Below are positions 9,476 through 11,071 of a stretch of DNA of 64,000 bases, one piece after another. The notes under the pieces are model-generated. The model did not search any database. It saw nothing but the letters and a program-made list of their open reading frames with translations, and was not told the DNA's origin. The stretch spans positions 62,001 through 126,000 of the forward strand of contig CACPOD010000002.1 of the NCBI GenBank assembly GCA_902635515.1. Direction: 5' to 3'. Every line of letters begins with the position of its first letter. Position 1 is the first letter of the stretch. The translations under genes and the position numbers were made by a program. This stretch comes from an uncultured Pelagibacteraceae bacterium. GTDB taxonomy: Bacteria > Pseudomonadota > Alphaproteobacteria > Pelagibacterales > Pelagibacteraceae.

Positions 9476-10405
9476 ATGAAAATTTTAGGAATAGGAAATG
9501 CAATTGTTGACGTTATTTGCAAAGTTGAAGATAATTTTATTGCCCAAAATAATCTTACAAAGAGTACGATGAAATTATTTTTTAATGAAAATGAATTCAA
9601 AAATTTATTAATAAATCTTAAAATTGAAAAAACTGTTTCTGGGGGCTCTGTAGCAAACTCTATAGTCGGATTATCTCAACTTGGTAATAAAGTTGGCTTT
9701 ATAGGCAAAATATCTGATGATGAATTTGGCATTAACTATGAAGAAGGATTAAGAAAAGAAAATGTAGAATATTTTTATTCTAAAAAGAAAGAAGAATTGC
9801 CAACTGGAACATGTTTAATATTAGTAACTCCAGACTCAGAAAGGACTATGTGTACTTTCTTAGGGACAGCAGGAAAAATTAATGAAGACGATGTAAGTTC
9901 TGATGCAATTCAAAAAAGTGAAATAATATTTTTGGAAGGTTACTTGTGGGATGAAGGAGAACCTAAGAAAGCGTTCGATAAAGCTATTAATAATGCAAAC
10001 AAAGTTGCTATGTCGCTCTCCGATCTATTTTGTGTAGATAGACACAAACCTAATTTTTTAAACTTAGTTAGAAATAAACTAGACATAACTTTTGCTAACG
10101 AACAAGAAATTACTTCATTAATTGAAGCAAAAAATTTCGATGAAGTCATAAATTTTTCTAAACAACTCAATAAATTGGTGGTTATAACTAGAGGGGAAAA
10201 AGGTGCGATTGCAATTAATGGTGATGAAGTTGTTGAAAACGATATTCAAAAAAATCTGAAAATTGTCGACCTGACAGGTGCAGGTGATCTCTTTGCTGCT
10301 GGATTTTTACACGGCTTCATTAACAAATTGCCTACAAAGGAATGCCTAGATAAAGGTACTGAAATGTCATCTAGAGTAATACAACAAATTGGAGCAAGAC
10401 TTTAA
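9476..10405 (+). CDS. PfkB-family sugar/adenosine kinase
   Basis: SGGSVANSIVGLSQLG, DLTGAGDLFAAGFLHG. Confidence 0.85.
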   Translation: MKILGIGNAIVDVICKVEDNFIAQNNLTKSTMKLFFNENEFKNLLINLKIEKTVSGGSVANSIVGLSQLGNKVGFIGKISDDEFGINYEEGLRKENVEYFYSKKKEELPTGTCLILVTPDSERTMCTFLGTAGKINEDDVSSDAIQKSEIIFLEGYLWDEGEPKKAFDKAINNANKVAMSLSDLFCVDRHKPNFLNLVRNKLDITFANEQEITSLIEAKNFDEVINFSKQLNKLVVITRGEKGAIAINGDEVVENDIQKNLKIVDLTGAGDLFAAGFLHGFINKLPTKECLDKGTEMSSRVIQQIGARL

Positions 10406-10407
10406 AA

Positions 10408-10527
10408 TTAACTTTTCTTTCTTTTGAAACTTCCCTTGCCTTTTTTTGGTTTTACTATTTTTGATTTATACTTTTTAGTAAATAAATCTTTAGCCATCGG
10501 ATTTTTTTTATTTAATTTGATAACCAT
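10408..10527 (-). CDS. arfA: ArfA-like alternative ribosome-rescue factor (39 aa)
   Basis: Hand translation MVIKLNKKNPMAKDLFTKKYKSKIVKPKKGKGSFKRKKS; ungapped match to the E. coli ArfA N...KKGKGSYMRK segment (recalled sequence); absent from the supplied ORF list. Confidence 0.75.
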   Translation of the reverse strand: MVIKLNKKNPMAKDLFTKKYKSKIVKPKKGKGSFKRKKS

Positions 10528-11071
10528 TTTTTTTACTAATTATAAATTCATTATCATTAAACATATTTAAAATTTTTTTTCTTAACCTATAAATATGTGT
10601 TTCAACAGTATGAGTTTCCATATCAGATTGATAACTCCAAACTTTTTCTTGCAATTCATTAATACTTACAGGTTTATTTGATTTAGATAGGTAAGTGATT
10701 GTATTGATTTCCTTTTCAGTCAACTTAAGTTTTTTATTATTTATTAACATTTCTCTAGAATTTAAATTTATAATATAATTATTTACTTTTACTTCAGACT
10801 GGCTGCTAAATTGTATTTTTAAAAATTCTATGTTTATCTTTTCAACTAATTTAAAAATATTTATTGGTACTTTATCTAAAACAAGTTGATTGCTAATATT
10901 TAAATTTTTTTTATTAGATATAACTAAATAATTATTATAATTGCTTACTTGTTCGTTTAAAGAATTTTCACTATCCACAAAAATAATATTAAAATTAAGA
11001 TCTAATCCAATTTCTTCTAGAATGTGATATAATGAGGTGAACTTATATATTATTAAATTTTGAATACTCAC
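10508..11071 (-). CDS. Winged-helix (OmpR/Trans_reg_C-type) DNA-binding protein with atypical N-terminal receiver-like region
   Basis: C-term LTEKEINTITYLSKSNKPVSINELQEKVW...HTVETHIYRLRKKI...KNGYQIK; no obvious phospho-acceptor Asp motif in N-term. Confidence 0.75.
   Translation of the reverse strand: MSIQNLIIYKFTSLYHILEEIGLDLNFNIIFVDSENSLNEQVSNYNNYLVISNKKNLNISNQLVLDKVPINIFKLVEKINIEFLKIQFSSQSEVKVNNYIINLNSREMLINNKKLKLTEKEINTITYLSKSNKPVSINELQEKVWSYQSDMETHTVETHIYRLRKKILNMFNDNEFIISKKNGYQIK

Follow-up and report, generated by a model that had tools for sequence, protein, structure and literature searches.

The minus-strand open reading frame at positions 10408 to 10527 of the window (the whole 64,000-nucleotide stretch of Pelagibacteraceae DNA analysed here) is a real gene and a strongly conserved relative of ArfA, and with good confidence we predict, from sequence comparisons, that it encodes a functional ArfA-family alternative ribosome-rescue factor of the SAR11 bacteria. 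The original prediction described a 39-residue frame that falls below the ORF-length cut-off, and the frame was found exactly as described; its translation is MVIKLNKKNPMAKDLFTKKYKSKIVKPKKGKGSFKRKKS*, here designated P0001. The features of the locus are as follows.

10408 to 10527, minus strand: arfA, encoding a 39-residue ArfA-family protein with its own stop codon (Pfam PF03889, SAR11 profile, conservation and dN/dS).
10417 to 10446, minus strand: codons for residues 28 to 37, KKGKGSFKRK, aligned ungapped (HMMER) to E. coli ArfA K33 to K42, a stretch that occupies the vacant mRNA channel (PMC5378476).
10447 to 10503, minus strand: codons for residues 9 to 27 (N-P-x-A-K-D-L...Y-K-x-K-I-V-K-P), aligned to E. 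coli ArfA 14 to 32, comprising the helix and the RF2-contact strand.
10508 to 10527, minus strand: 20 nt shared by the start of arfA and the end of the HTH gene upstream of it, from the ORF coordinates.
10508 to 11071, minus strand: upstream gene for a 187-residue protein with a Trans_reg_C winged-helix domain, an output domain of the OmpR/PhoB type (PF00486, E = 7.8e-13), syntenic with arfA.
9476 to 10405, plus strand: convergent pfkB-family carbohydrate kinase gene (PF00294, E = 3.4e-45).

P0001 scores 25.8 bits against the Pfam ArfA family PF03889 (E = 7e-6), 0.3 bits above the gathering score of 25.5, whereas none of the NCBIfam models matched it, so that the proposed HMM search succeeded on the Pfam side only. 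A phmmer search of all PDB chains gave six matches, all of them ArfA, at an E-value (0.26) that is weak on its own. In the HMMER alignment, N9 to K37 pair without gaps with E. coli ArfA N14 to K42, giving a 29-residue core. The gap-free alignment claimed at the outset thus holds, as do the spacing of 19 between the Asn and KKGKGS in both proteins and the aromatic-x-R-K that follows that motif. An alignment of 27 SAR11 orthologues (A1), used as a profile, retrieved the same six distinct sequences from the PDB, all ArfA and nothing else, ungapped and with E about 1e-7 (1.4e-7). Each of the 27 also matches PF03889 individually (E ≤ 0.01, best 1e-8), and no other Pfam family is matched. KKGKGS, R36 and K37 are invariant in A1, as are N9, L15 and K19, and the KGKGS and basic segment that serves the mRNA channel is present in SAR11 ArfA. 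The candidate identity as ArfA is therefore supported by the Pfam score, the reciprocal PDB match and the full set of orthologues. Unlike ArfB, P0001 has no match to PF00472 in its 39 residues and no GGQ hydrolase domain of its own.

The genomic setting is shared by most of the 141 arfA loci collected, with a same-strand HTH gene in 133 and a convergent pfkB gene in 131. In the source genome arfA starts within the last codons of the HTH gene, and its stop codon lies 2 nt from that of pfkB; in most loci these two stop codons overlap or are at most 44 nt apart. Of 130 scored loci, 121 have an arfA start that overlaps the stop codon of the HTH gene, most commonly by 20 nt (57 loci) or 4 nt (38 loci), and the 20-nt overlap seen here may permit translational coupling. 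Two loci of genus g9 have a canonical arfA at another position, where its start overlaps a gene end that, judged by eye, belongs to a photolyase-like gene.

SAR11 arfA evolves under purifying selection. The dN/dS ratio is about 0.23 over 150 moderately diverged SAR11 pairs and 0.10 over 525 closer pairs, the latter from a set fetched by its PKKGKGS motif and hence biased in those columns, and the core differs from that of its closest relative by seven synonymous changes and no nonsynonymous ones. A check of orthologues had been proposed together with the analysis of dN/dS, and it returned a conserved, syntenic ORF with a synonymous excess; conservation is SAR11-wide, with the frame intact in relatives rather than broken by frameshifts or stops.

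PF03889 is found in 236 of 296 genomes of the source family and in 11 of its 14 genera, with one match per listed genome, and among 14 control genomes only E. coli matched in this search. At the level of the order, the SAR11 profile gives matches in 218 of 298 genomes, a count that includes weak matches, not all of them canonical ArfA. Named carriers comprise Pelagibacteraceae, Pelagibacterales and Candidatus Pelagibacter ubique records; these and the viral-contig loci described below were fetched by the PKKGKGS pattern and give no basis for claiming conservation of that motif. Across the whole class, 10 of 386 alphaproteobacterial genomes match, three from the source family and seven from other families. 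Sporadic small ArfA-like ORFs, some of them clear, occur in these other families, several alongside ArfB. A 2024 survey of more than 15,000 genomes, which used nucleotide profiles, recorded arfA in none of 2,376 Alphaproteobacteria (PMC11633108). As far as we found, the SAR11 gene is new to published surveys of this class, and individual database records may already bear the ArfA name.

The other ribosome-rescue factors of the lineage give this distribution its context. The source genome encodes SmpB and two PF00472 proteins, RF1 and RF2, the latter with an SPF motif; no third PF00472 protein that could be ArfB was found in it. Among SAR11 genomes having both RF1 and RF2, a third such protein is likewise absent from all but one, whereas in six of the seven alphaproteobacteria used for comparison the same search found one, short and ArfB-like. 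On this basis ArfA seems to take the place of ArfB in SAR11. A tmRNA is present in 49 of 52 good SAR11 genomes. The alpha_tmRNA model found none in the source genome, for which we do not claim absence because the assembly is 83% complete and its relatives have the RNA. The suggested inventory of ssrA, smpB and arfB thus yielded SmpB in the genome itself, tmRNA in its SAR11 relatives and no ArfB. The prfB gene of the source genome carries an E. coli-like programmed frameshift site, TATCTTTGA, which reads MDNNYQNLKEEIEKINQKIQEYL then CTT TGA, with AGGAG just upstream.

In the E. coli complex the ArfA C-terminus occupies the empty mRNA tunnel, residues 27 to 30 add a strand to RF2, and Leu19, Leu24 and Phe25 bind RF2 (PMC5378476, PMC8012679). 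SAR11 ArfA keeps, in E. coli numbering, N14, L20, an aromatic residue at 25, basic residues at 26 and 28, and Val or Ile at 29. Only one of the three residues of the hydrophobic RF2-contact patch is maintained, F25 becoming Y20, L19 becoming D14 and L24 becoming K19; Ala18 corresponds to K13 in P0001. Most SAR11 copies are missing the N-terminal segment with which E. coli ArfA folds back onto S12 and h44. With the tunnel motif kept and the RF2 contacts partly altered, the predicted binding in the mRNA channel is well supported and the recruitment of a release factor appears likely.

The altered patch bears directly on which release factor is recruited. An alternative that we consider unlikely, but one to be taken seriously, is that the protein binds the channel as ArfA does but, like ArfT, recruits RF1 or either of the two release factors; ArfT is of similar size (40 residues) and uses RF1 or RF2 (PMC6299226). 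The loss of most of the RF2-specific patch would fit such a scheme, as would the invariance in A1 of the lysine that replaces L24. Tyr or Phe is nevertheless kept at the F25 position, and the RF2 of the source genome retains its SPF and GGQ motifs and the ArfA-contacting residues F217 and W319, with V198 changed to Ile, although these residues may be kept for ordinary termination. We regard RF2 as the most likely partner.

The length of the protein is also informative. E. coli ArfA is active when truncated down to Asn47 and inactive if shorter (cited in PMC5378476). P0001, still basic at its end, stops at the position of E. coli residue 44. This is three residues before Asn47, so that the protein is shorter than an E. 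coli ArfA from which the dispensable tail has been removed. The original statement that the protein stops right after the basic motif is correct as to the missing tail, but understates the truncation. Similarly, the label "minimal" suits a protein of 39 residues compared with 72 in E. coli, but does not set it apart, since ArfT has 40 residues and SAR11 and viral copies go down to 33–35.

In E. coli, the 3' coding region of arfA forms a strong hairpin, for which our script gives −26.3 kcal/mol (z = −7.5). The same script finds no stable hairpin at the 3' end of the source gene, the best 50-nt fold being −6.4 kcal/mol (z = −0.4), in agreement with what had been noted from the sequence. Across 111 SAR11 orthologues the median of the best 50-nt fold is likewise −6.4, the wider fold around the source gene is ordinary (z = −0.08), and a search at its 3' end detected nothing resembling a terminator. 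We take the RNase III hairpin to be typical of E. coli-type regulation and not to define the ArfA protein family. Since the hairpin is absent, the E. coli design, in which arfA mRNA is non-stop and under tmRNA control, is unlikely in SAR11, and the predicted non-use of tmRNA/RNase III feedback agrees with this. Given its own stop codon, the lack of hairpin and degradable tail and the usual overlap with the HTH stop codon, SAR11 ArfA would probably be made constitutively through translational coupling with the HTH gene, rather than being induced by failure of trans-translation.

A mechanism can be proposed from these correspondences. On a ribosome that has run to the 3' end of a stop-less mRNA and stalled there, the KKGKGSFKRKK end would enter the empty mRNA channel, while the N-P-x-A-K-D-L...Y-K-x-K-I-V half would recruit and open a release factor. 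This would most likely be RF2, and its GGQ loop would then hydrolyse the peptidyl-tRNA. SAR11 ArfA would in this way back up tmRNA-SmpB in a lineage with no detectable ArfB.

Relatives of the gene are also carried by viruses. A pattern-based scan of viral contigs identified at least 314 loci that encode ArfA relatives. The 80 of these that were fetched have diverse ORFs of 33–71 residues, in addition to a 107-residue fused form, and the host syntenic genes (HTH, pfkB) are absent from all of them. Four of ten viral neighbour proteins scanned match phage families (clamp loader, terminase, endolysin and HNH endonuclease). In the 107-residue protein, present in five loci, the ArfA core is fused to a longer C-terminal region, TKPTMRKRLFESIKAGGKGG... 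In contrast to the pattern-based scan, tblastn of P0001 against an annotated phage collection found nothing, even at an E-value of 10; the low-complexity filter and the shortness of the query are the probable causes. P0001 also matches weakly (E = 4e-4) the phage family PHROG 20887, whose function is not known and which may be a phage ArfA family. Pelagiphage HTVC027P gp30 has been annotated as ArfA by PF03889 (PMC12753301), and g10 of Citromicrobium phage RXM also bears this annotation (PMC8953757).

The abundance of these viral loci, some close to the clamp loader, terminase, endolysin and HNH genes, together with the annotation of gp30, raises the question of whether SAR11 arfA is a captured phage gene with its main role in phage infection or defence, the rescue of host messages being secondary. 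We think this improbable, as the single fixed chromosomal locus in most SAR11, the long conservation and the low dN/dS argue for a housekeeping role. Still less probable is a basic ribosome- or RNA-binding small protein, such as a hibernation or stabilising peptide, that shares the channel motif but does not bring about peptide release. A lysine-dominated sequence in which the release-activating contacts are only partly kept could be read in this way, but the whole 29-residue core is ungapped to ArfA, including the positions of N14, L20, F25, R26, R28 and V29, and the reciprocal profile search is specific for ArfA. That the ORF is spurious, arising from overlap with neighbouring genes, has a negligible probability: it is short, A-rich and shares 20 nt with the HTH gene, but the conservation and dN/dS rule this out, with a synonymous excess, a frame intact in close relatives and clean absence of the ORF from the same locus in some genomes.

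Where a genome has no canonical arfA, the pfkB-HTH locus is cleanly empty, the gene ends nearly abutting and with no remnant seen. Simple loss was considered for these ArfA-less SAR11 and rejected, as a weaker search found relatives without KGKGS elsewhere in some of them. These ArfA-like proteins, 35–48 residues long, occur in some SAR11 lacking canonical arfA and in a sister family. Aligned with A1 by hhalign, the set scores 43, while 200 column shuffles reach at most 15.6, and the top PDB matches of its profile are ArfA, though weak (E = 0.017). Six of its 13 proteins match Pfam DUF7230 (PF23876) at E ≤ 1 (best 2.8e-6), and one checked singly lies exactly at the curated cut-off for that family.

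Returning to the SAR11 protein as an ArfA-family rescue factor, comparison with known systems places it closest to E. coli ArfA (PF03889; structures such as 5MGP, 5U4I and 5MDV), with which it shares the ungapped core and the KKGKGS-aromatic-x-R-K ending, the presence of RF2 in the genome and coexistence with tmRNA-SmpB in the lineage. It differs in its smaller size, shorter N-terminus and lack of a hydrophobic C-terminal tail, in having no RNase III hairpin and a stop codon of its own that directly follows the basic motif, in a start that overlaps the upstream gene, in the Asp and Lys that replace L19 and L24, and in its alphaproteobacterial host. Francisella tularensis ArfT is similar in its length of about 40 residues, its basic C-terminus and its lack of ArfA-type RNase III regulation, but has KKGGSTNKK in place of KKGKGS, has been found in Francisella alone and can recruit RF1 or RF2 (PMC6299226), whereas the SAR11 protein is detectably homologous to ArfA. 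Bacillus subtilis BrfA, compared by description, is likewise a small RF-dependent rescue factor that places a basic motif in the mRNA channel (PMC8012679), but it is a Firmicute factor, whereas the SAR11 protein matches ArfA directly. HTVC027P gp30 and RXM g10 come from phages of SAR11 and of another marine bacterium; the sections on these genes concern phage-borne ArfA and describe no host chromosomal ArfA (PMC12753301, PMC8953757). The KGKGS-less proteins of the SAR11 order, some matching DUF7230, resemble SAR11 ArfA at the profile level but lack the glycine motif and lie at a different locus. We conclude that the SAR11 protein is a reduced form of ArfA that is probably regulated differently and has in part changed its contacts with release factors.

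A broader scheme, which we put forward tentatively and regard as possible but rather doubtful, is that SAR11 replaced ArfB by a reduced ArfA branch whose contacts with the release factor are altered, that some of the genomes missing the canonical gene carry a KGKGS-less relative, itself related to DUF7230, and that marine phages carry the same factor widely. If so, part of DUF7230 would be a cryptic ribosome-rescue family.

SAR11 bacteria are among the most abundant cell groups in the ocean. The presence of ArfA across most of them, with ArfB not detected, changes the map of ribosome rescue, and their ArfA represents a version without the classic tmRNA/RNase III feedback. ArfA is also widespread in marine viral contigs, which suggests that rescuing ribosomes is important in the course of infection. 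Because the SAR11 protein is short and its contacts have changed, it allows the minimal needs of release-factor recruitment to be tested directly.
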